Origin: Tychonema sp. LEGE 06208 | GTDB lineage: Bacteria > Cyanobacteriota > Cyanobacteriia > Cyanobacteriales > Microcoleaceae | Assembly: GCF_015207505.1 (NCBI RefSeq) | Contig: NZ_JADEWT010000005.1 | Coordinates: forward strand, 1-64,000 | DNA length: 64,000 nucleotides | Direction of reading: 5' to 3' | Shown: positions 15,932 to 32,423 of the stretch, piece by piece | Layout: every line of letters begins with the position of its first letter | Numbering within the stretch: the first letter of the stretch is position 1 | Notes under the pieces: model-generated | Told to the model about the DNA's origin: nothing | The model's input: only the letters and a program-made list of their open reading frames with translations | Database searches by the model: none | Made by a program: the position numbers and the translations under genes

Positions 15932-16291
15932 GATTCGGAGAGAATTTGCTATTTTACTGTTACTTTGTGCGATCGAGCTAATTGATTATACCACAAGTAT
16001 ACTACAAAATGGTACTGCTGCTGTTAGCTGAAATTTTAGCACTAATAAGTAAAGCCAGCTAATTAAACGTAAAATACCGATCGCTCAAAGGCTTACTGCG
16101 TATCTCTTCCTTCTTCTTCCTTCTTCCCTCTTCCGACTTCCATCGGACTGATGACGTTGTACCGAAAGCTCGGAGGCGACAGCACTGATGACTAATGACT
16201 GATGACTGATGACTAATGACTGATGACTAATGACTGATGACTAATGACTAATGACTAATAACTAATGACTAATGACTTCTTCCCTCTACGT
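15932..16291. repeat. Intergenic region with TGACTAA/TGACTGA heptamer array
   Basis: Contains a pyrimidine-rich CTTCCTTCTTCC stretch with a CCGACTTCCATCGGACT unit (16102-16152), related to the insert in the EAL gene. A 7-bp array of TGACTAA/TGACTGA (16184-16277) runs almost to the nnrE start. An in-frame ATG at 16265 lies inside the array, so the true start is more likely 16292. Confidence 0.8.
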
Positions 16292-17986
16292 ATGACTATT
16301 CAAAAATTTGTTGTCACCGCCGACCAAATGCGGCAAATAGAAGCGAGAATATTTGCTGCTGGAATGCCAGTAGCAGCTTTAATGGAAAAAGTCGCCGGAT
16401 TGATTGCTAAACGCATTCAGGCGCTCTTGAAGGAAGAGGAAAGTTCGGTAACAAGCAATGTACGGGATTTAACGGATAGCAGGAAAAGGGAAGAAGGGAA
16501 AAAGATTGTTAATTCGGCGTTGCCAGCGATAGGCGTATTGGTTGGGCCCGGACATAACGGCGGCGATGCTTTGGTTGTGGCTCGCGAATTGCACTTTCAA
16601 GGATTTCCCGTAGTTATTTACTGCCCGTTTTCTAAGCTTAAAGAACTCACAAAAAGTCATGCTGATTATGCCCGTTATTTAAAGATTCCCTTCGTTGACA
16701 AAGTTGAATCGCTGAACAACTGCGATTTACTAATTGATGGTTTATTTGGGTTTGGATTGGAACGAGAAATTACTAATCCCACAGCCGCAGTTATTGAGGA
16801 AATAAATAATTTAAACATACCCATTTTTAGTATAGATATTCCATCGGGAATTCATACAGATACCGGAGCAGTTTTGGGGACTGCAATCAGGGCAAAACAT
16901 ACATTGTGTTTGGGATTGTGGAAAATGGCTTTTCTGCAAGACCAAGCGTTAGAATATATCGGCAGTTGTGAATTAATTGATTTTGATATTCCCGTCGCAG
17001 ATATTGCAGCAATATTGGGTGATTCGCCAGCAATCCAACGCATTACCAAAGCATTGGCAATCCAGCATTTGCCCTTGCCCCGATCGCCAATTTCGTACAA
17101 ATACACCAACGGTCATTTACTAATTATTGCAGGTTCCCGCCGCTACACCGGAGCCGCAATTTTGTCGGCGTTGGGAGCAAGAGCAAGCGGTGTCGGAATG
17201 CTGTCAATTGCTGTTCCTGAGTCGATTAAACCGATGTTGAGCAGTCATTTGCCAGAGGCTTTAGTTATCGGATGTCCTGAAACTTCAAGCGGTGCAATTA
17301 GCGAGTTGCCGGTAGCAATAGATTTGAGCAGTTACGATGCGATCGCCGCCGGGCCCGGTCTGACATTGGAAGCCGCGATCGCTGTAGAATCTCTACTGGA
17401 TAGCGATCGACCTCTGGTTTTAGATGCCGACGGTTTAAATATCCTCGCTCAACTCGGCACAATCCCGATTTTGTCGGAACGCCGAGCACTGACAATTATC
17501 ACGCCTCACCAGGGCGAATTTAAGCGTTTGTTTCCCGAATTAGCCGGTAAAACAGGCGATAGTCGAATTGCCGCAACTCAAGCCGCGGCTGAGCTTTGCG
17601 GTGCAGTTGTGTTGTTCAAAGGAGCGAAAGTTTGCATAAGCTGGAAGGATGACGGCGATTCCCTACAGGATAGCTACGCCGCGCGTACCGTCACCTATCT
17701 CAATCCCGAAAGCACCCCAGCCCTCGCCAGAGGGGGCAGCGGCGACGTTCTCACGGGCTTGTTAGGGGGACTGTTAGCAGGTGCGTTAGCGAAGCCCTCG
17801 AAGAGGATCGCCCGCAAATCCCCAGCTCAAGCAGTGGCAGCAACAGCAGTTTGGTGGCACGCTCAAGCCGCAATCATGGCAGCCAAAGAACGGACAGAAT
17901 TAGGAGTAGATGCCTTTACTTTGACACAGTATTTAATTCCGGCGTTGCGAGAATGCGATCGGGAAACAATCAACAGTATTTTGTAG
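16292..17986 (+). CDS. nnrD: Bifunctional NAD(P)HX epimerase / ADP-dependent NAD(P)HX dehydratase
   Basis: Repairs hydrated NADH and NADPH. About 564 residues from ATG 16292. The N-terminal NnrE (YjeF_N) domain has VGPGHNGGDALV and SIDIPSGIHTDTG; the C-terminal NnrD domain has TPHQGEFKRL, LFKGAK and the RGGSGDVLTGLLGG active site with its catalytic aspartate. Three segments look foreign: residues about 48-75 between the first helix and the VGPGHNGGD loop ([12 protein letters not shown] repeat); GDSLQDSYAART near 455-466; and AKPSKRIARKS near 501-511. All keep frame and lie where the family has loops, so the enzyme may still work. Confidence 0.95.
   Translation: MTIQKFVVTADQMRQIEARIFAAGMPVAALMEKVAGLIAKRIQALLKEEESSVTSNVRDLTDSRKREEGKKIVNSALPAIGVLVGPGHNGGDALVVARELHFQGFPVVIYCPFSKLKELTKSHADYARYLKIPFVDKVESLNNCDLLIDGLFGFGLEREITNPTAAVIEEINNLNIPIFSIDIPSGIHTDTGAVLGTAIRAKHTLCLGLWKMAFLQDQALEYIGSCELIDFDIPVADIAAILGDSPAIQRITKALAIQHLPLPRSPISYKYTNGHLLIIAGSRRYTGAAILSALGARASGVGMLSIAVPESIKPMLSSHLPEALVIGCPETSSGAISELPVAIDLSSYDAIAAGPGLTLEAAIAVESLLDSDRPLVLDADGLNILAQLGTIPILSERRALTIITPHQGEFKRLFPELAGKTGDSRIAATQAAAELCGAVVLFKGAKVCISWKDDGDSLQDSYAARTVTYLNPESTPALARGGSGDVLTGLLGGLLAGALAKPSKRIARKSPAQAVAATAVWWHAQAAIMAAKERTELGVDAFTLTQYLIPALRECDRETINSIL
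16443..16479 (+). repeat. 37-bp dispersed repeat, in-frame copy B (nnrE part)
   Basis: Matches 92-128 (minus strand) at 36 of 37 positions. Encodes [12 protein letters not shown] within the N-terminal epimerase domain. A purine-rich GGAAAAGGGAAGAAGGG stretch follows, as in the intergenic DNA upstream. Confidence 0.9.
17654..17813 (+). repeat. Two in-frame repeat units within nnrD
   Basis: Unit 1 at 17654-17691 (GGCGATTCCCTACAGGATAG and onward) and unit 2 at 17786-17813 (CGTTAGCGAAGC, then CGAAGAGGATCGC). Both units occur side by side in opposite orientation inside the M61 peptidase gene (27205-27275). Unit 2 matches there at about 24 of 28 positions. Confidence 0.8.
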
Positions 17987-18032
17987 CCCTTGCACCGCGC
18001 ACCGAAGCCGTTAACAATTCACACTTTGCTAA

Positions 18033-18078
18033 CTCAAACGAGTGACACTCAAACGAGCGACACTCAAACGAGTGTCGC
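18033..18078. repeat. 15-bp triple repeat with hairpin
   Basis: Three copies of CTCAAACGAGTGACA-like 15-mers. The last two form a perfect hairpin GCGACACTC-AAAC-GAGTGTCGC (18057-18078), 71 bases after the nnrD stop. It could end that transcript but has no T-run. Confidence 0.8.
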
Positions 18079-18166
18079 TTGAAAAAGTGACTGTGCAATC
18101 ATAAAACCTAACAGTTATACCTGAAATATCAAAGACCAAAACTTAAATCTGGAAAGGAATCACATT

Positions 18167-18697
18167 ATGTATACCGAAGAAAGAAGCACGAACAATGAAA
18201 CTATGGCTCTCGCGGCCGATACTACAGCTCAATCACATATTGCATTTGCTGAAACCACTAGAGTCAACAAACCCACTTTACAAATGGGTTCAACAGGTCA
18301 AGCTGTCAAGGAACTACAACAGCTTCTATATCATTGGGCATATTATTTCGGCCCGATTGACGGTATCTTCGGCGTGCAAGTTCAACAAGCAGTCAAAGCC
18401 TATCAACACCGCGTCTTCTTAAAGGAAGATGGGGTTGTCGCTTCCCTGACTTGGGAAGCACTATACTCTGGTGCACCTGTGAATATGCCCATCCTGATGA
18501 AAGGCAGTTCTGGTAATACTGTAAAAATTGTTCAGAATGTCCTCAAAATCAATGGATACTATTTCGGTTCCATTGACGGATTCTTCGGGACAATGACAGA
18601 TGTAGCAGTGCGACAATTGCAAATTAGCAAGGCTTTACCGCAAGATGGAATTGTCGGCTACAGAACTTGGCACGCCCTCAGCAAGTTACCGCACTAA
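18167..18697 (+). CDS. Protein with two peptidoglycan-binding (PG_binding_1) domains
   Basis: 176 residues: a variable N-terminus (1-35) and two tandem PG_binding_1 repeats. The first has MGSTGQAVKELQQLL, YFGPIDGIFG, then AVKAYQ, and ends WEALYSG. The second has KGSSGNTVKIVQNVL, YFGSIDGFFG, then AVRQLQ, and ends WHALSKLP. Such domains bind cell-wall peptidoglycan. No catalytic domain is attached and no clear Sec signal peptide is visible, so how it reaches the wall is unknown. AAGGAA lies before ATG 18167; a terminator follows. Confidence 0.9.
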   Translation: MYTEERSTNNETMALAADTTAQSHIAFAETTRVNKPTLQMGSTGQAVKELQQLLYHWAYYFGPIDGIFGVQVQQAVKAYQHRVFLKEDGVVASLTWEALYSGAPVNMPILMKGSSGNTVKIVQNVLKINGYYFGSIDGFFGTMTDVAVRQLQISKALPQDGIVGYRTWHALSKLPH

Positions 18698-18724
18698 TGA
18701 CTGGTTGGATTCACTTTATTTCTT

Positions 18725-18750
18725 AGTCCGCGCAGGCGGACTTCGTTTTT
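18725..18750 (+). terminator. Intrinsic terminator
   Basis: Stem AGTCCGC/GCGGACT (18725-18731, 18736-18742) with GCAG loop, then TCGTTTTT. It ends the peptidoglycan-binding gene. Confidence 0.85.
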
Positions 18751-18753
18751 GTA

Positions 18754-18780
18754 GGCGCGGTTTCAACCGCCGTCTTATCT
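18754..18780. repeat. GCGGTTTCAACCGC dispersed element
   Basis: GGCGCGGTTTCAACCGCCGT, a short near-palindrome followed by CTTATC. Relatives lie at 14821-14846, 24908-24930 and 46373-46392, all between genes. Confidence 0.8.
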
Positions 18781-18792
18781 TTTCCTAAGTCC

Positions 18793-21700
18793 CTAATTAT
18801 CCTTGATAGGAATGCTGTGCACCGGAAGGGCGATCGCAAATTCTGTTCCCCTTCCCGGCCACGAACAACATTCTAATGTTCCCCCGTGTTTTTTTCTGAC
18901 TATATCCTGGCAAATTGGCAGTCCAAATCCGGTCCCTTTACCTTCTACTTTGGTTGTAAAAAATGGCGTAAACAATTTTTCTTTGATGTTTTCTGGCATC
19001 CCAATTCCATTGTCAGCTATCCGAATCTTTACGGTAGGATCGATAAGTTTTTCGCCAAAGTTGGCAATAGAGGTCGAAATTGTAATCGTATTGGGGTTCC
19101 TCTCAATTTCTTTGTAGGTTTTACCAACATTAGATTCTTCCAGAGCATCGATCGCGTTGGCTAGCAAATTCATAAATACCTGATTTAGTTGTCCCGGATA
19201 GCATTCTATTTGAGGCAATTCCTCGTAATTTTTGATGATTTTAATGGCAGGGCGATCGCCAGATGCTTTCAACCGATGTGCTAAAATCATTAATGTGGTA
19301 TCAATTCCTTCATGAAGATTGGCCGGTTTTTTCTCAATCCCATCGCTACGCGAATAATTTCGCAAAGATTGCATGATGTCGCCAATACGATCCGTTCCCA
19401 ATCTCATCGAGTCAATCATCTTGGGCAAATCTTCTACTAAATATTCTAATTCAATCGCTTCTATTTCATCTAAAACTTGTGGGCCTGGCTCGGGAAAGTT
19501 GTCTTGATAAATTTGGAGTAAATTTATTAAATCGCTAACATATTCTTTAGCATGATGCAAATTGCCAGAAATAAAGCTGACGGGATTGTTCACTTCGTGG
19601 GCCACTCCAGCCACGAGTTGTCCGAGTTGCGAGATTTTTTCTGTTTGAATTAATTGTGCTTGAGCTTGTTGCAATTTAACGAGTGTTGCTTCTAAATCTT
19701 CAGCTTTTTGTCTCAATTGATCTTCCGATGTTTGCAGAGCTTTTTCGGCGCGCTTGCGATCGCTAATATCCCGATTAATTACCAAGCCGTGGGGTTTGCC
19801 GCCATACTCCAAAAAGTTTCCTTTTAGCTCAATATCGCACAGCGTACCGTCTTTTCTCCGTATGATAGCTTGACAGGTAAATTCTTCGCCTCGGCTGACA
19901 GTTTGTTGGAATTCGACGAATGAATTCACATACTCTGGAAGAATATAATCTGGCGGATTTAACTGCAAAAACTCTTGCTCAGAATAGCCAAATATTTGAC
20001 AGAATGCGGGGTTAACTGCAATGACTTTACCAGTCTCCAAATCTATCAGCGAAAGTCCGTCTACTACTGCCTCAAATATGCTGCGGTACTCCTGTTCTTT
20101 TTGGATAAGTTCGACTTGGGACTGTTGCAGGCTTTCGAGAGATTCAGCCAACTGGCGGGATTTGTGTTGTTCCTGGGCGTAGATACGGGCGTTTTCAATG
20201 GCGATCGCCGCTTGTGCCGTTAATAACTGCAACAGTTCCAGCCGATCGCGCGTAAATGCTCCTGTTGCCAGATTATTCTCTAAATACACAATGCCAATCA
20301 ACTTACTTTGATACAAAATCGGCGCGCATAAAATCGATTTTGGTTGGCAATTTTGAATGTAACTATCCGCTGGGTAAATTGTTTCTTGACTTGCATCGCT
20401 CAATACCAGTGGTTGCTGAGTGATCCCAACATACTTGACTAGAGAAATAGGAACATCTAAACTGTTTTCAAGCAGCATTGACTCCTGAAAGGTTGCTGAG
20501 TCATGCAGGTTAGTATCCGAGACTTCAACAAACAGTTGCCCGTCTCTTTCTAAAATAATACAGCCTTTCTGTGCGCCAGCATTTTCTAAGATGATTTGCA
20601 GCAGTTTTTTTAACAACTTTTCTAAAACAATTTCACTATAAATTGCCCCAGAGGATTTGATTACCGTTGCTAAATCCAAGAGATTAGCATGACTAGATGT
20701 ACTCGTAGTTACAGTTGCACCGATCCGCGACTCGACAGTTTCAGGAAATAAATTCCCATAGTATTGTTCGAGTTGGCGGACTTTCGCTGTTGCGCCCCAC
20801 TGGATGTAGCAAACTCTGGCATTGCTGAGATAATTTTTGACGAAAATCAGCCGATTTTGGGATAAATAAAATCGGGCAGCTAATTCATTAATCAGCGCTG
20901 CATCTTGAATGAAGCCGTTTTCTATTGCGAGGGCGATCGCACTATCGTAGCATTCTGCCGCCTCATACTTTTGTCCGGACAACCGCCCCGCTTCCGCCCG
21001 GATGGCTAAATATTTGTGCTGGTAATTTGCAGGGCAGTTTTTCGCAAACTCTCGAAGTTCTTCCAGGCAAATGTTAAGCTGTTCTAGGTATAGTTGGCGA
21101 TCGCCCTCGCTGGCATTTGTACAAGCAGCAGCAAGGGCTATAGCCCGGTGGAAGCAAAAAACCGGACTCAGAAAAACGCCCGCAGCACCTGCCAAAAATT
21201 TAACACCCATATTGGCATATTCTAATGCTCGATCGACCTCGCCAAACCAATTCGCCACGGTTAGTCTGTAGAGATAAACCATAAAAGAAGTCATCAAATC
21301 TGCAGAGGCTTCAGCAAATTCTAATAGCGACTGTTCGTCGATGAAAGTTGGGGGATTTTCTACACTCTCGGCAGCACGAGTAAGCCGAGCAATTGCCGAT
21401 TTATTGAGCATAAAAAATGCTAGCATATTGCGGTCAATTTTTTGCAAAATCGGTAAAAATTCCTCAATAACTGCGGTGGTTTTTTGCAGCGATTCATTGC
21501 CGTAAAAGCTGAACCAAAGACAATTAATCGCAGCATATCCCGACCACTGATAAGCACCTGTCTCTAAACCGCTATTAAAAGCTTTGAGGACAAAAACCTT
21601 GGACTCATCAATATGTTTGATGTAGTGCAAACAAGCCCCCCACAGCAAGAAAATATAAGCACTTAACTCTTTAGTATCCCAGCGTTCGTAGAGAGTTAAA

Positions 21701-24684
21701 CCCAGTTCTCCTGCTGCCAAACCAGCCTCAATTTCGCCATATTTAACAATCAAAGTAAAGGCATACACAATGTAGCCAAAGGCGGAAATCCGGCAATTTC
21801 CGTGTTCGATTGTCGCCTGCACCAACTCGATCGCGCACAAAAATTGAGCGTTGGGACTGGTAAAGTAAGCAATGGGGTAAAGTTCTTTCAAAATCCGGTG
21901 GGCGGCGAGTTGCAGGGGATCGGTGAGTGTTGGTAAATCGGCTAAATTGGCGATCGAACCCCCAATCATCTCCTTTGTCTTTGCCAACTCCCGCAGCAAA
22001 TACCCATCATCCGGGTCAGCTTCAAACTCAATTCCCAACAATTGTAGCGTTTCGATACCTAACTGATAAGCCGCAGGCAAATCATTTTTCATCCGCAGAC
22101 AAGTCATTTTCAACTCATTAATCCGACACCGTTCTAACAATGTCTGAGTATGAGGCAAAATAAAGTCTAGAATTGCCAAAGCTTCGTCATTTTTCCCATT
22201 CAAATATTCAGCTTCGCCCAATTCAAAATACAGCGCCAAAGTTAACACATAATTATCTTCCCAGCTTTGGGCCGGCAAACAGTTGCAGCCCGACTGGAAA
22301 AAACTCAGCGCCGTTTCAAACGCAGAAGCAGCTTTCGCAGTTTTGCCAGCCTGCAAATTTAACTCAGCTAATTCATACTTTTCGTTTAACTCGCAAATCA
22401 ACCCGCCAGCAAAATTCAAATGATTGACAATATCAAAAATTCGTTCTTCCCGTTGGGCTGCGGTACTTCTGTGCAGTAACAAACGCCCGATCGCCAAATG
22501 AACAGGTTCTTTCTGTACGTCAGGAATCATAGCATAAGCAGCTTGTTGAACGCGATCGTGCATAAATTTGTAGCACACATCTCCGGCCGTTTCCCCCAAC
22601 TTATTCAACTCTTCCGGCTCAAATACTTGCGGAATTCGATAGCTATTACCTACAGGTAAAATCAAGCCCATCTGCAACGCTTCCCACAAATCCTGCGCTG
22701 TTTGAGTCCAAATTTGTCCGCTAGCAACCGACAGCACATCCAAAGTAAACTGATTATCTATACAAGCAGCCAATTGCAAAATTCGCTGGGTTGCAGTTGA
22801 CAAAGTTTGAATTTTGTTTACCATCAAATCAACAATGTTTTCCGAAATATCCTGCCCTTCAATATATTTAATGTCCCACTGCCACTGGGCAGCCTGCGGG
22901 TCAAATCTCAACCAGCCTTTTTGATACAAATATTTCACCAATTGTTTGAAGAAAAATGGATTTCCGTCAGTTTTTTGCACGAGGAAATTCGCCAGCGGAC
23001 TCGCTGTTTCAGCAGCACATCTCAAAGTTTCAGCAATTAGTTGAATGGCGCTGTCAATTGTTAGCGGTTCTAAAGTAATAGCTGTTATCGGAATGCCAGC
23101 GGCTCGAATTGCCTCATTTGCTAGCATAAATGGATGCGTCGGGCTGACTTCGTTATCCCGATAAGCCACAATTACTAGCAAGTAAGGGATTTTTTCGAGG
23201 CCATTTTGTTGATATAAATTGACTGTTGCAGCATCTATCCACTGGCCGTCGTCGAGAAACATTACTAAGGGATGTTCGGCGGTAGCAATTGCTTGAAGTA
23301 ACTGCTGCATCACTCGGTTGAAGCGGTTTTGAGATTCGATCGCCCCGAGTTGTGGTACGTCTGGTTGCGGGCCTAAAATTAACTTTAATTCGGGGATGGC
23401 TTCGATCGCAATTCGAGCATTCGCATCCAAAACTTGCAGCAGTTTTTCTCGCCACAATTTAATCTTTGCTTGGCTTTCAGTCAAAATCTGCTGCACCAAA
23501 TTCCGCAGGGCTTGATTGAAACAAGCATAGGGAACATTGCGCTTGAATTGGTCAAATTTGCCCGAAACCAAGTATCCGCGCTGCCTGGTTAAATTACGCA
23601 GAATTTCGTGAACTAATGCTGATTTGCCAATCCCGGAATAGCCACCTACCAAGACAATTTCACCGCTGCCTTTGCTGGCGCGATCGAAGGCTTGCAATAA
23701 TTGTGCTATTTGTTTTTCTCGCCCGTAAAGTTTTTGCGGAATTAACAACTGACTCATGGCATCTAGTTGTCCGGGAATAAAATTAGAAATTTTCCCTGAC
23801 TCCTCGACTTGATTTTGGCAGCGTTCTAAATCTGCTAACAATCCGGTTGCTGTTTGATACCTGTCTTCGGCATTTTTTGCCATCAGTTTTTCCGCAATTT
23901 GGGTCAAAACTGGGGGAATTTGCGGATTTAATTGTTGAAGGGGAATTGGTTGTTTGGCAATGTGACAGTGGACTAATTCCAGCGGATCTTTGCTGTCAAA
24001 TGGCAATTTTCCTGTCAGCAATTCGTAAAAGGTGACACCTAGAGAGTAGAAGTCGCTGCGGTAGTCTACAGCGCGATTCATCCGCCCGGTTTGTTCCGGC
24101 GACATATAGGCGAGGGTTCCTTCTAGGCGATCGGGATTTTTTAAGTGCGGGGTTTCTTTATTTAACCGCGAAGCAATGCTGAAATCTGCAAGTTTTACTT
24201 GCATTGTTTCGGGGTTAATTATAATATTAGCTGGCTTGATGTCTTTATGAATAATTTGATTTTGATGCAGGAATACTAAAGCTTTTGCTAATTGGATGGT
24301 GATGTTTAAGAATTGGGCGATCGGCAATTGGTAAGGTGCCGTTGCTGCTGCGGTAACATTTGTGCTGCTGGCTGCATTCTGGGCCCTTGCTATCCACTGT
24401 TCGAGGGAGATACCTCCAAAATCTTCTAAGACTAATACCAAGCAATTCGGGTGAGTTTCTAGGCGATCGACTTTGACAGCGTGTTCGCAATCGAGATATG
24501 CGGCGATCTGATATTCGTGTTTTAAGCGAGTTATTTGTTCTAGGGTAGGATATTCTGTATTTAAAACTTTGAGGATGGCAGGCTGTCCGTTTGTCAGCGA
24601 CACCGCCCGGTAAATAACCGTGTTAGTTCCTTGATGGATGAGTTCTTGCAAGTCATAGTCAGAAATCCTTAAAGCTGGCAGCAT
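18793..24684 (-). CDS. Hybrid Ser/Thr protein kinase - AAA ATPase - GAF - PAS - histidine kinase
   Basis: A 1963-residue cytosolic sensor of the cyanobacterial HstK type. Order: Ser/Thr kinase (about 8-290; HKDIKPANIII catalytic loop), predicted ATPase with Walker A GGYSGIGKSAL near 345, long helical repeat region (about 700-1290), GAF (about 1330-1500), PAS (about 1525-1645, ending ISDRKRAEKAL), histidine kinase with H-box AGVAHEVNNPVSF near 1695, N-box NLLANAIDAL near 1838, G-boxes DNGIGMP and GTGFGLPIC. The kinase magnesium loop reads DFS rather than DFG, which I believe is usual in this family. No receiver domain or response regulator is adjacent, so output is unknown. No membrane segment is seen. 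Confidence 0.95.
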   Translation of the reverse strand: MLPALRISDYDLQELIHQGTNTVIYRAVSLTNGQPAILKVLNTEYPTLEQITRLKHEYQIAAYLDCEHAVKVDRLETHPNCLVLVLEDFGGISLEQWIARAQNAASSTNVTAAATAPYQLPIAQFLNITIQLAKALVFLHQNQIIHKDIKPANIIINPETMQVKLADFSIASRLNKETPHLKNPDRLEGTLAYMSPEQTGRMNRAVDYRSDFYSLGVTFYELLTGKLPFDSKDPLELVHCHIAKQPIPLQQLNPQIPPVLTQIAEKLMAKNAEDRYQTATGLLADLERCQNQVEESGKISNFIPGQLDAMSQLLIPQKLYGREKQIAQLLQAFDRASKGSGEIVLVGGYSGIGKSALVHEILRNLTRQRGYLVSGKFDQFKRNVPYACFNQALRNLVQQILTESQAKIKLWREKLLQVLDANARIAIEAIPELKLILGPQPDVPQLGAIESQNRFNRVMQQLLQAIATAEHPLVMFLDDGQWIDAATVNLYQQNGLEKIPYLLVIVAYRDNEVSPTHPFMLANEAIRAAGIPITAITLEPLTIDSAIQLIAETLRCAAETASPLANFLVQKTDGNPFFFKQLVKYLYQKGWLRFDPQAAQWQWDIKYIEGQDISENIVDLMVNKIQTLSTATQRILQLAACIDNQFTLDVLSVASGQIWTQTAQDLWEALQMGLILPVGNSYRIPQVFEPEELNKLGETAGDVCYKFMHDRVQQAAYAMIPDVQKEPVHLAIGRLLLHRSTAAQREERIFDIVNHLNFAGGLICELNEKYELAELNLQAGKTAKAASAFETALSFFQSGCNCLPAQSWEDNYVLTLALYFELGEAEYLNGKNDEALAILDFILPHTQTLLERCRINELKMTCLRMKNDLPAAYQLGIETLQLLGIEFEADPDDGYLLRELAKTKEMIGGSIANLADLPTLTDPLQLAAHRILKELYPIAYFTSPNAQFLCAIELVQATIEHGNCRISAFGYIVYAFTLIVKYGEIEAGLAAGELGLTLYERWDTKELSAYIFLLWGACLHYIKHIDESKVFVLKAFNSGLETGAYQWSGYAAINCLWFSFYGNESLQKTTAVIEEFLPILQKIDRNMLAFFMLNKSAIARLTRAAESVENPPTFIDEQSLLEFAEASADLMTSFMVYLYRLTVANWFGEVDRALEYANMGVKFLAGAAGVFLSPVFCFHRAIALAAACTNASEGDRQLYLEQLNICLEELREFAKNCPANYQHKYLAIRAEAGRLSGQKYEAAECYDSAIALAIENGFIQDAALINELAARFYLSQNRLIFVKNYLSNARVCYIQWGATAKVRQLEQYYGNLFPETVESRIGATVTTSTSSHANLLDLATVIKSSGAIYSEIVLEKLLKKLLQIILENAGAQKGCIILERDGQLFVEVSDTNLHDSATFQESMLLENSLDVPISLVKYVGITQQPLVLSDASQETIYPADSYIQNCQPKSILCAPILYQSKLIGIVYLENNLATGAFTRDRLELLQLLTAQAAIAIENARIYAQEQHKSRQLAESLESLQQSQVELIQKEQEYRSIFEAVVDGLSLIDLETGKVIAVNPAFCQIFGYSEQEFLQLNPPDYILPEYVNSFVEFQQTVSRGEEFTCQAIIRRKDGTLCDIELKGNFLEYGGKPHGLVINRDISDRKRAEKALQTSEDQLRQKAEDLEATLVKLQQAQAQLIQTEKISQLGQLVAGVAHEVNNPVSFISGNLHHAKEYVSDLINLLQIYQDNFPEPGPQVLDEIEAIELEYLVEDLPKMIDSMRLGTDRIGDIMQSLRNYSRSDGIEKKPANLHEGIDTTLMILAHRLKASGDRPAIKIIKNYEELPQIECYPGQLNQVFMNLLANAIDALEESNVGKTYKEIERNPNTITISTSIANFGEKLIDPTVKIRIADNGIGMPENIKEKLFTPFFTTKVEGKGTGFGLPICQDIVRKKHGGTLECCSWPGRGTEFAIALPVHSIPIKDN

Positions 24685-24907
24685 AATTTTTGATTCCTGT
24701 CAGTATATTGATTTCTAATTCTAGAGTGCACCATGCTGAATACAAAAAATAGAGAGAAATTACCGAGATAAAAAGATTAAAAGACTACCTATTTAAACCA
24801 GGTTTATACAAACAAAATCCTGCGATAGCGGGTTGAAAAAGAGTGGACGGTTGAAATTCCATTATTTTTGCGAACCTGCAGGCAAGTGCACGCAATTTTG
24901 ACTACTG

Positions 24908-24930
24908 GCGCGGTTTCAACCGCCGATGGT
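24908..24930. repeat. GCGGTTTCAACCGC dispersed element
   Basis: GGCGCGGTTTCAACCGCCGA lies just after the TerB-like gene stop. It belongs to the same family as 18754-18780. Confidence 0.75.
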
Positions 24931-24936
24931 TTCGAT

Positions 24937-25410
24937 CTAGCCTTTGATGAAATCTTCTAATTTCTGAGCCATCTTCTCTACAATTCCCTCGGAATTATCT
25001 GCCGCTGATGCTTCGGCTTCAATACGCTTCACCGCATCCTCTGGAAGATTCAGCAACTGCACTAATTTTTGATAAGCGGCAGCTTCTTCGGCGTTAATTT
25101 TTGGTTCGTCGGGAGTGCGAGAACTAGAAGCAATGACTTGATAGCCTAGTTGCAAAACTAATTCCTTTTCTGCTTGAGTTTCTAATTGGCAAATCAACTC
25201 GTCAAGGGGAATATTTTGCATGATATAATCCCGGAGTTCCTGTTGCATTGATTCTCGATCGGCATCCGTAGCAAACAAACTGCAAAAGCGATCGAGCATT
25301 AAATTAACTTCTGCTGTGGCGAGTTCGCCGTCAGCCCAGGCCATTGAAGCAACTATTCTCAGCAGGTTCATTTGGCGGGGCGTAATTGATGGAGGTTGTG
25401 GGGTTTGCAT
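24937..25410 (-). CDS. TerB-like (tellurite resistance B fold) protein
   Basis: 157 residues, all helical. The N-terminal block (PRQMNLLRIVASMAWADGELATAEVNLM) has the WADGE...E pattern of TerB domains, in which acidic residues bind metal. Two further helical segments follow, with a C-terminal amphipathic helix (EGIVEKMAQKLEDFIKG). The fold is linked to membrane-stress and metal responses in other bacteria, but no other ter genes lie here, so only the fold is assigned. It lies in the same direction as the kinase and M61 genes, separated by repeat DNA. Confidence 0.8.
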   Translation of the reverse strand: MQTPQPPSITPRQMNLLRIVASMAWADGELATAEVNLMLDRFCSLFATDADRESMQQELRDYIMQNIPLDELICQLETQAEKELVLQLGYQVIASSSRTPDEPKINAEEAAAYQKLVQLLNLPEDAVKRIEAEASAADNSEGIVEKMAQKLEDFIKG

Positions 25411-25420
25411 AATTTAAATT

Positions 25421-25554
25421 GGTAATTTGTTATTAGTTAGTTGTTAGTTGTTAGTTGTTATTTTTTATTTGTTATTTGTTATTAGCTAATGGCAACAACT
25501 GCCAACTGCCAACTGCTAACTGCCAACTGCCAAATAACAACTGACTACTAACCA
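25421..25554. repeat. TTAGTTG and AACTGCC heptamer arrays
   Basis: TTAGTTG/TTATTTG units (25421-25485) followed by AACTGCC units (25497-25535) between the M61 stop and the TerB-like start. Both have 7-bp period. Confidence 0.85.
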
Positions 25555-25559
25555 TGATG

Positions 25560-27509
25560 TCACAATTTTGATAGAGGAACTCCCAGCCATCCAGTAAAGT
25601 TTTGTTGCTGAATCGCGCTGGGTCGATCGACCGGTACGATCGAATAACGACTCGGACACCCCTCGGCGAGAGTAACAGAACAAGTCCGCAATTCGTCTTG
25701 GTGAAACACTGTCACCTCTAACGTGTCACCAGGCTGGTAATCTTTCAGCCTTTCGCCCGCTTGTTCTGCGTTGGCTACCCGAAAACCCGCGATCGCCAGC
25801 AACTCGTCTCCAGCATCAATTCCGGCCAACTGCGCCGGAGATTCTGCTTCGACAAATTTAATCATTTCCCGCCCGTTTTCGGTTCCCAAAATCCAACCGA
25901 TGCGAGGCATTTGGTTAGTTTCACCTACCGAAATTTGCAGCCCGAACGGTTCGAGATATTCGTTGTAAGGCAGCTCTTCTGTGCCGTCTACATACCGCGC
26001 AAAAAAGTCGCTCAAATCCCGATCGGCGACGGACTCGATCGCCCTTTGCAACTGTTCGGGAGTAAAGCCGATTTCTGTCGGTCGCGCATCAGAATTTAAC
26101 CGTCCGTTTGATGTTATCTGCCCCGGCTTTGCCTCTGTTGGCGGCTTCAGGTCAAAATCTTCATTTTCAGCAGAACCACCCTTACCAAACTGCTGCCACA
26201 TCAAACGCATCACATCATCGAGCGATCGGGCGTTACCGTGCTTGGCTCGAATCAACAAATCGAGCAAAAACGAAACAAGTTCCCCTTTCAAATAATAGGA
26301 AATCTGCGAATTGTCGCTGTTAGCATCTCTGCGATAAAGTTTAATCCAAGCATCCCAGCTCGATTCGCTTGCCGGCTGCACCTTCCGCCCCGGAGTCGTC
26401 TCCAAGCGAGTAATTTCCTTCGATAAATTTTGGAAAAAACCTTTCACATTGTAGAGACCAGAACGAAAAGGAATCACCAAATCGTAATAACTGGTCGTGC
26501 CTTCAGAAAACCATAAAGAAGGAGTATAATTTTCTTGTTCATAGTCAAATACTTCGAGAGCTTTCGGTCTAATTCGCTTGACATTCCAGAGGTGAAAAAA
26601 CTCGTGAGCCACCAATTGAATAAAGCGTTCGTACTTTTCCTTAGCCCGAAAACCAAAACGCGGATAGTTGAGAGTGCAGCTTTCCTTGTGTTCCAAGCCG
26701 CCAAAACCGGAGCCGGACAAATGCAGCAAAAACACATACCGTTCGTAAGGCAAACCGCCAAACATTTCGGCCTCAACTTCAATGACTTTCTTGATATCTT
26801 TAATCGCCCGATCCGGTGCTAAATTGCCTTTCCCCCAAACCACTAGCTGGTGGGGTTTTCCCATTACTTCAAAATCGTACACTTCGTGACAGCCAATCTC
26901 AAAAGGACTGTCGGCCAGGGTATCAAAATCGGCAGCAGCAAAAGTCATATCCTGCCCGGAAACCGGAGGCAAAGTAGTCACTGTGCGCCATTGGGGCTGC
27001 GGCGGTACAGCGGTCACGATGTAGGAGTTGCGCTCAAAACCGGGCAAGAAAAAGCACAAAGCTGCTGGATTGAAATAACCGTGAGTCGAGTCTAAATGAT
27101 TGGTTCGCACTGTCAGTTCGTTGGCAAAAATCCGGTAGCAAACGGTGACATCTGACACTGAATTTGTCTCGATTTGCCAATGATTTTTGCTTTGCTTGCG
27201 CCAAGGTAAAGTTCGTGAAGCAGAGCTATCCCGCAGGGAATCGCCCGTTAGTGAAGACTCCGAAGAGGATCGCGCTCGAAAATCTTGCAGGTGGCGGGCG
27301 TACTCTCGAATCAAGTAAGAACCGGGAGTCCAGACAGGCATTTTCAAATCCAGCACCGGCTGCGACCAACCTTGCACGCGCAAAGTCACTTCAAACAGGT
27401 GGGATTCGGGATTGGGCATCGCCACCCAATATTGAATTGTCGGTGCTGTTCGCTGCGCGATCGACTTGCCGGCAGCGGAGGAGATATCCAAAGAAGTAAC
27501 ATCAGTCAT
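25560..27509 (-). CDS. M61-family metallopeptidase with PDZ domain
   Basis: 649 residues. The zinc motif is AHEFFHLWNVKRIRP near 300 with the downstream glutamate in WFSEGTTSYY, as in glycyl aminopeptidases. N-terminal beta domain (WTPGSYLIREYARHLQDF near 60-77) and a C-terminal PDZ domain (LGTENG, SPAQLAGIDAGDELLAI near 555-575) complete the family layout. No signal peptide is seen, so it appears cytosolic. Residues about 78-100 (RARSSSESS, LTGDSLRDS, SASRT) are foreign-looking and encoded by repeat DNA between the LQDF and LPWRK blocks, a surface loop. The start overlaps the stop of the Crp gene by 4 bases, so the two are one operon with the regulator first. Confidence 0.95.
   Translation of the reverse strand: MTDVTSLDISSAAGKSIAQRTAPTIQYWVAMPNPESHLFEVTLRVQGWSQPVLDLKMPVWTPGSYLIREYARHLQDFRARSSSESSLTGDSLRDSSASRTLPWRKQSKNHWQIETNSVSDVTVCYRIFANELTVRTNHLDSTHGYFNPAALCFFLPGFERNSYIVTAVPPQPQWRTVTTLPPVSGQDMTFAAADFDTLADSPFEIGCHEVYDFEVMGKPHQLVVWGKGNLAPDRAIKDIKKVIEVEAEMFGGLPYERYVFLLHLSGSGFGGLEHKESCTLNYPRFGFRAKEKYERFIQLVAHEFFHLWNVKRIRPKALEVFDYEQENYTPSLWFSEGTTSYYDLVIPFRSGLYNVKGFFQNLSKEITRLETTPGRKVQPASESSWDAWIKLYRRDANSDNSQISYYLKGELVSFLLDLLIRAKHGNARSLDDVMRLMWQQFGKGGSAENEDFDLKPPTEAKPGQITSNGRLNSDARPTEIGFTPEQLQRAIESVADRDLSDFFARYVDGTEELPYNEYLEPFGLQISVGETNQMPRIGWILGTENGREMIKFVEAESPAQLAGIDAGDELLAIAGFRVANAEQAGERLKDYQPGDTLEVTVFHQDELRTCSVTLAEGCPSRYSIVPVDRPSAIQQQNFTGWLGVPLSKL
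27205..27275 (-). repeat. Two adjacent in-frame repeat units within M61 gene
   Basis: On the plus strand: GAAGCAGAGCTATCCCGCAG and onward (to about 27245), then CGTTAGTGAAGACTCC with CGAAGAGGATCGC (about 27247-27274). Both units recur in nnrD. Part of unit 1 also occurs between genes at 32303-32323. Confidence 0.8.
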
Positions 27510-32096: not shown

Positions 32097-32423
32097 GAGA
32101 AATATTTTTTGATTTAGTAAGATTGGTCAGTTATTCGGAGCTAGAGTCGGAGATAGCCTTCTCATCTGACTAACTTTTACTGCATCATACGGAATTTACT
32201 GGTTGAATAAAATCTGTCTAAAGACAGATGGTGGAGTCGTCTATAGGTTTGTATTGAGGACTTCAGTCCTCAAAGTTTGATGGTAGTTGTGCAATTCCCT
32301 GGTTGATAGCTACGCTTCACGGACTTTTCCCCCTTTTTTTATCCCTTCCGCAAATTTTGGATATCTTCTTTTTTGAGTTTTTTGTGGGGTGGGCAGAAGA
32401 TCCCGCCTCTATATTCGATTTAA
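32097..32423. other. Intergenic region with palindrome and repeat fragment
   Basis: Holds a perfect palindrome TTGAGGACT-TC-AGTCCTCAA (32254-32273) and GATAGCTACGCTTCACGGAC (about 32304-32323), which matches part of the repeat found inside the M61 and nnrD genes. No gene is seen. Confidence 0.7.

Follow-up and report, generated by a model that had tools for sequence, protein, structure and literature searches.

The window analyzed here, the first 64,000 nucleotides of contig NZ_JADEWT010000005.1 of the cyanobacterium Tychonema sp. LEGE 06208 (G000:C188:1-64000 in our numbering, where G000 is this organism's draft genome of 6.55 Mb in 232 contigs), carries two very short repeats, unit A of 24 nt and unit B of 21 nt, in frame within two unrelated genes, nnrD and an M61 peptidase gene. 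Units A and B very probably belong, as two subfamilies, to a single minute mobile repeat of the SDR5 kind; SDR5 is one of the small dispersed repeats (SDRs) of cyanobacteria. We put the probability that they represent a mobile insert whose copies are filtered by selection at about 0.9. Because 21 and 24 are divisible by three and most frames of the units are free of stops, an insert usually just adds 7 or 8 residues, and the additional loop is apparently harmless to the protein.

Inserts in nnrD and the M61 Gene

The gene nnrD (16265..17986, + strand; an open reading frame (ORF) of 573 aa) encodes a bifunctional NAD(P)H-hydrate repair enzyme with YjeF_N and Carb_kinase domains (Pfam PF03853 and PF01256 matched) and 2ax3 (TM0922) as a structural relative, and holds one A and one B insert. 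The M61 glycyl aminopeptidase family gene (25560..27509, - strand; an ORF of 649 aa; PF17899 and PF05299 matched; structural relative 4fgm) holds an A and a B insert that are adjacent. A preliminary description of this DNA held that both genes are kept open by the repeats, and indeed both ORFs are intact, with the expected domains flanking the inserts on either side.

The units lie where that description had placed them. It had proposed to align the M61 and NnrD families in order to define the insertion edges, and alignment to the empty alleles of congeners set the exact limits: A is a precise insert of 24 nt and B one of 21 nt, both at CG/ATCGC (the slash marks the junction), in or overlapping the highly iterated palindrome HIP1 (GCGATCGC). 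Strands are given below for the reading NCG[..]ATCGC. Unit A of nnrD (17660..17683, - strand, 24 nt) encodes residues 466-473, SLQDSYAA, and among 27 genus genomes its site is filled in 22, our own included, empty in 4 and partial in 1. Unit B of nnrD (17786..17806, + strand, 21 nt; residues 508-514, LAKPSKR) is present in 6 of these 27 genomes, with 21 empty sites. Unit A of the M61 gene (27216..27239, + strand, 24 nt; residues 91-98, SLRDSSAS) fills its site in 6 of 29 genus genomes, and unit B (27248..27268, + strand, 21 nt), which lies in a CGATCG adjoining that of A, does so in 2 of 29; the near relative G021 has the intact empty site AGCGCGAT/CGGGCGAT.

The preliminary description also had the units in opposite orientation in the two genes, and considered that they tolerate translation in more than one frame and in both directions. 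The former is true of the strand of the window; when the direction of the gene is taken as reference, A is oriented alike and read in the same frame in nnrD and M61 (GDSL.DS.A.RT), and only B is flipped. The latter is true of the genome, in which open copies of A fall into four orientation/frame classes and those of B into five, with several peptides per unit, but not of A in the two genes of the window.

Both nnrD inserts are modeled as low-confidence loops. In an AlphaFold2 model of NnrD built from 17 sequences (mean predicted local distance difference test score, pLDDT, 74.7), strands 456-462 and 474-480 flank the A insert, where pLDDT is below 50 at 465-471, and helices 492-508 and 521-542 flank the B insert, where it is below 50 at 511-516; the model has nine stretches below 50, so that low confidence is not peculiar to the inserts. 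The nnrD A insert is a gap against 2ax3, an alignment that ends at residue 509 and thus leaves the B insert beyond its coverage, and the M61 inserts are a gap against 4fgm. Rather than being conserved across orthologues, both nnrD inserts are missing in the 12 more distant members of the 17-sequence alignment and are patchy within the genus. Elsewhere in nnrD, at about 16425-16520 (residues ~56-84), there is a low-complexity linker whose length and sequence are very variable among congeners.

Target Word and Mobility Within the Genus

A genus-wide comparison of six sites, which lie in four genes, gave 49 filled, 96 empty and 7 partial alleles. Of the 96 empty alleles, 50 have the word CGATCG no more than 8 bases from the junction: 14 of 23 for M61 A, 3 of 27 for M61 B, 1 of 4 for nnrD A, 20 of 21 for nnrD B, 4 of 11 for panC-cmk A and 8 of 10 for DUF3616 B. 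In 48 of the 50 it is exactly at the junction, the two others being nnrD B of G004 and panC of G006. No flanking duplication or base loss was found at the clean alleles compared.

The same word emerges when inserts are removed in silico from the 79 copies of the genome: rejoining yields CGATCG in 66 cases and full HIP1 in 23. Among the 66, the right-hand neighbor is C in 57 and the left-hand neighbor is G in 28; the search patterns had put no constraint on the base after ATCG or on the left side of A. Either base has a background frequency of ~53% by our own arithmetic. On account of these frequencies, the working target looks like CG/ATCGC and not the whole of HIP1. Full HIP1 is not clearly more frequent at these copies (23/66, 35%) than among CGATCG sites at large (685/2499, 27%, in a 0.86-Mb sample made up of part of our own genome and the window).

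Filled and empty alleles coexist within the genus in all four genes. On trees built from the M61 and nnrD sequences with the inserts excluded, the distributions require 4 changes for M61 A, 2 for M61 B, 4 for nnrD A and 2 for nnrD B (4 on the nnrD tree). The M61 A site has been filled in about four lineages: the unit has a TTCA tail in G000, G021 and G028, a CGCG tail in G006 and G016, and a length shorter by 3 nt (21 nt) in G023, and the sister genomes of G006, G016 and G023 are empty. The M61 genes of G007, which is empty for A, and of G016, which is filled, are 97.15% identical. Unit A of nnrD is of old standing in the genus, and it seems to have undergone an almost precise loss in G027 and G028. 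The tail at one site differs between genomes as a block, TTCA versus CGCG, at the nnrD A and panC-cmk A sites, as if units had been replaced or converted in place.

Copy Number and Probable Filtering in Genes

The presence of the repeats in unrelated genes had been put forward from the window alone, and the genome bears it out with 79 copies, 38 of A and 41 of B. A genome-wide search at up to 3 mismatches found 38 A and 40 B, and none with the patterns read backwards, so that each unit greatly exceeds chance at this scale; the 41st B copy is M61 B, with 4 mismatches. Within the window, the 20-nt core of A has 2 matches against 0.00 expected from shuffles, and the 16-nt core of B is not significant there by itself (2 matches against 0.62 expected, a number reached by 13 of 100 shuffles). 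The genome-wide tally of frame and orientation that the preliminary description had suggested found copies in either orientation, in both coding and intergenic DNA. The intergenic fragment that it had noticed is an A copy, decayed yet almost complete (32296..32319, - strand, 3 mismatches), with no ORF of at least 100 aa over it. The window holds 5 unit copies, where 0.8 would be expected from the genome average (P ~0.001, post hoc).

Whether a copy lies in a gene was judged from ORFs of at least 100 aa, called on insert-free sequence so that open frames were not favored. By this measure, 52 of the 79 copies are in ORFs and 27 are outside. All 22 in-ORF copies of A are open; of B, 25 are open and 5 are stopped. 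With the 566 in-ORF HIP1 sites of the sample as a random model, stops would arise in 35% of A insertions (44% with T in the first loop) and in 23% of B insertions. The 5 stops observed among the 52 copies thus compare with 14.8 expected (P ~0.0009), and for A alone the absence of stops has P ~0.00007. In a second genome, G011, 32 of 59 A copies are in ORFs, 30 of them open and 2 stopped (P ~0.00015). What keeps genes open is that each unit has a length divisible by three, together with a shortage, relative to expectation, of copies whose frame contains a stop. Copies are also under-represented in ORFs, at 52/79 compared with 566/685 HIP1 sites (P ~0.0002); the comparison with the plain coding fraction (0.776) gives P 0.011.

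Pfam matches were checked for 42 of the 47 open copies, in 40 proteins, and 18 of the 42 lie within a match that continues on both sides. Hosts with a copy inside a domain include PriA, PanC-cytidylate kinase, UreF and a histidine kinase. Two A copies ~3.6 kb apart lie in nonribosomal peptide synthetase condensation domains (L243 and L244; G000:C109:48991 and 52568). The five stop-adding B copies (loci L185, L188, L195, L202 and L203, near the ORF end in L203 and L188) may either really break genes or reflect mistaken ORF calls.

Beyond this genome, A at up to 1 mismatch occurs in all 29 genus genomes, with 12-59 copies each and none in the backwards control. In a draw of 388 genomes from the class, exact A was found in 9 and exact B in 5, and more than one exact copy per genome only in the three genus members that the draw included. 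A 24-nt A-like insert occurs in a DNA cytosine methyltransferase gene on plasmid pCAL6303.01 of Calothrix sp. PCC 6303 (L304 1499-1522); this host belongs to another cyanobacterial order, and the gene adjoins one for an Eco29kI-family restriction endonuclease. Nostocales plasmids were also considered as a source of SDR5 and set aside: a hairpin scan of 100 kb of two other Nostocales plasmids found no unit, and this Calothrix plasmid supplied the one match. A Planktothrix paper deals with an IS element and not with the present repeat (PMC4766695).

Architecture of the Units

Read in the same direction, unit A is NCG[TGAA GCGNAGC TA TCCC GNA GGGA]ATCGC and unit B is NCG[TTA GCGNAGC CCTC GNA GAGG]ATCGC. 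Common to both are the word GCGNAGC and, after it, a 4-bp hairpin, mostly with a GNA loop, that abuts ATCGC; in our own genome, 27 of 38 A copies and 40 of 41 B copies have GNA as this second loop. The unit ends are mostly T..GGGA or T..GAGG. The two units, presented in the preliminary description simply as parts of one family, are better seen as two subfamilies of 24 and 21 nt that have one architecture and one target word. When indels were allowed in the 0.86-Mb sample, 22 A and B units had these two lengths only, bar one edge change, and the backwards patterns gave 0 matches. In the same sample, hairpins of 4 bp with a 3-nt loop before ATCG have a GNA loop in 16 of 20 cases with the upstream word, compared with 2 of 46 without it, although these 20 are mostly copies of one family and hence not independent.

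Over the part of the unit that starts with the first hairpin, variation is greatest at the N of both GNA loops, as judged from 123 A and 55 B contexts (from several genomes, at up to 5 mismatches, with orthologous copies included). The search left loop positions free, which favors variation there, yet the neighbors in the loop of the second hairpin were equally free and vary less. The commonest 14-mers in the sample of our own genome (L086-L125 and the window) are tandem repeats of heptamers, for instance runs of AATAACC and AATGACT.

Two rarer units have the same edges. A third recurrent word, GCGNAGCGGGGYGTAAGCCATCGC, has at least 5 copies among the matches listed for a pattern with 130 matches in total (18 in the backwards control), and it is likely to mark a third subfamily. 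This third unit, NCG[TAGCGNAGCGGGGYGTAAGCC]ATCG, has 21 nt with the hairpin GGC-GTAA-GCC and at least 6 copies, 5 of 6 in an ORF; all six share the edges NCG[TA GCGNAGC ...]ATCG, one with two substitutions. A fourth unit, NCG[TTAGCGAAGCTTGCAGNAGAGG]ATCG, has 22 nt and at least 3 copies, 0 of 3 in an ORF; its position outside ORFs fits a frame filter, although three copies prove nothing. The 21-nt and 22-nt units lie, respectively, at L410-L412, L092 289-312, L124 3862-3885 and L088 18019-18041, and at L281, L413 and L414; their counts are lower bounds and are excluded from the 79.

Explanations Considered

That the segments are conserved parts of both protein families, or an artefact of assembly, is scarcely credible. 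Nothing speaks for it except the long persistence of nnrD A in the genus, and against it, the nnrD inserts are missing from the distant sequences, the M61 protein of outgroup G054 has no such segments, and the units are present in many separate assemblies. Selection of the inserted peptides as adaptive loops that improve the host proteins might be suggested by the same site, since filling in 22 of 27 genomes means that an insert can be long-lasting in one gene. However, each unit is read as different peptides, in several frames and both directions, presence is patchy, the inserts are in loops, and copies are under-represented in ORFs relative to HIP1 sites, all of which make this explanation very unlikely. 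A mobile insert subject to selective filtering would account for most copies as passengers surviving in loops, with selection removing those that break or harm a gene.

Several observations weigh against this preferred reading or its details. Of the empty alleles, 46 of 96 have no CGATCG close to the junction; M61 B accounts for 24 of these, and its low figure counters a simple reading at that site even though G021 keeps the empty site. ATCG on the right and, in the case of B, also CG on the left were fixed in the search patterns, which favors those parts of the target among the rejoined copies. Gain, loss and recombination are indistinguishable from the numbers of changes on the trees. Genes are represented by ORFs of at least 100 aa, B alone is not significant in its shortage of stops (5 of 30, P 0.27), and 9 of the 40 proteins have no Pfam match. 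As for structure, the 4-nt tail of A ahead of the first hairpin is as variable as the loops; compensatory stem changes are few (4 cells in 123 A and 1 in 55 B), and were dropped as support for a structure; and folding energies are ordinary (z -0.03 to -1.9), and were likewise dropped as proof of one. The moving step itself was never seen, and no partner enzyme was found.

As to how the units move, the travelling form may be a short single strand of the unit, folded into two mini-hairpins whose loops are of the GNA type, and this strand might be joined into a nick at CG/ATCGC, which contains the orphan-methylase word CGATCG. We offer this single-stranded DNA route tentatively, at somewhat less than an even chance. 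A fuller version, slightly more tentative again, is that units of 21-24 nt, each with two tandem extra-stable mini-hairpins (GC-GNA-GC, then a short stem with a GNA/GNNA loop), would move as single-stranded DNA into CGATCGC and generate, genus-wide, in-frame loops of 7-8 residues in housekeeping enzymes, with frame-breaking lengths surviving only outside genes. A less probable alternative is that an RNA copy of the unit is reverse transcribed into a nick at HIP1, a route that the 2008 SDR paper reportedly proposed for some SDR elements. In-ORF copies in either orientation would be transcribed if their host genes are, and RNA folding energies are below the DNA ones, a weak point because this is a general property of the two parameter sets. 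However, G and A are retained in the loops while N varies, which is the pattern of DNA mini-hairpins: according to the passages on these in PMC4686876, they are unusually stable when a GNA or GNNA loop is combined with two or more G-C pairs, with 78 C for GCGAAGC. The third unit with its GNNA loop likewise counts against RNA, and because of that loop the single-stranded DNA route is favored slightly more.

A repetitive extragenic palindromic (REP)-like element, moved by a Y1 (HUH) tyrosine transposase of the REP-associated tyrosine transposase (RAYT) or IS200/IS605 kind, would also be a small hairpin with precise insertion and no duplication, and RAYTs are thought to move GTAG-tagged REPs (PMC3733652, in part). 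We consider it improbable here, as the genome has only four Y1_Tnp matches, two with an inner stop and one partial, and neither A, B nor the pattern GCGNAGC..ATCGC was found in their fetched flanks (up to 1.5 kb); a Y1 transposase was therefore dropped as a partner. Furthermore, the REP passages of PMC3733652 do not tie REPs to HIP1.

Relation to Known Repeats

In the 2008 SDR paper, Elhai and colleagues reportedly found SDR5 only inside HIP1 and with a length of 21-27 nt; A with 24 nt, B with 21 nt and the rarer units with 21 and 22 nt are all within that range. SDR5 is also said there to have a common secondary structure backed by compensatory changes, and the hairpin adjoining ATCG in A and B has few such changes and ordinary z-scores. 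That A and B are a real set of tiny mobile repeats is well supported; their assignment to the SDR5 kind rests on target and size, as opposed to sequence. As described in the relevant part of PMC4390886, SDR5 inserts precisely between bases 3 and 4 of HIP1 (GCG/ATCGC), and directed cutting at HIP1 could partly explain its placement. The likeness thus consists of precise insertion at the same HIP1 position, tiny size and a cyanobacterial host (Nostoc and relatives for SDR5). There are also differences, in that the target of A and B is nearer to CG/ATCGC than to whole HIP1, at least two lengths occur, and about two thirds of the copies are in ORFs. Among the literature matches listed, PMC4390886 was the sole one on SDR5 together with HIP1, and there was no report of in-frame SDR5 insertion.

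Rickettsia palindromic elements (RPEs) similarly occur in frame in unrelated protein genes, as parts of PMC10969869 and PMC3733652 describe, and insertion in frame in many protein genes is a trait that A and B share, with 47 of 79 copies in open ORFs. RPEs differ, however, in having ~150 bp, an insert of 20-30 residues and a conserved peptide (PMC10969869, in part), as opposed to 24 or 21 nt and several peptides here, and the passages on them in PMC10969869 and PMC3733652 mention no HIP1-like word. REPs and REPINs are small hairpin repeats as well, some within genes (sections of PMC3733652 and PMC3116915), but REPs as described there have a GTAG or CGTC tag and are mostly outside genes, whereas A and B have a fixed target word, lack the GTAG/CGTC end tag, and showed no linkage to a RAYT or other tyrosine transposase in the flanks fetched. 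HIP1 with its orphan methylases provides the target word and perhaps the cut, to follow the passages of PMC4390886 on it. HIP1 itself is an over-represented word, in contrast to A and B, which are mobile units.

Concluding Remarks

SDRs have reportedly been put forward as perhaps the smallest mobile elements known. The kind of repeat described here is already known from cyanobacteria, and the notable point is its in-frame residence in genes. These repeats illustrate how selfish DNA can contribute to the evolution of proteins: their length is a multiple of three, they hold few stops, and the word that they target is common in genes. The repeated filling of one M61 site means that the target word channels where new loops arise. 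The design of DNA mini-hairpins, if confirmed, would point to movement by way of single-stranded DNA and to the involvement of HIP1 methylation. Finally, filled and empty alleles in near relatives make the movement of SDRs directly testable.

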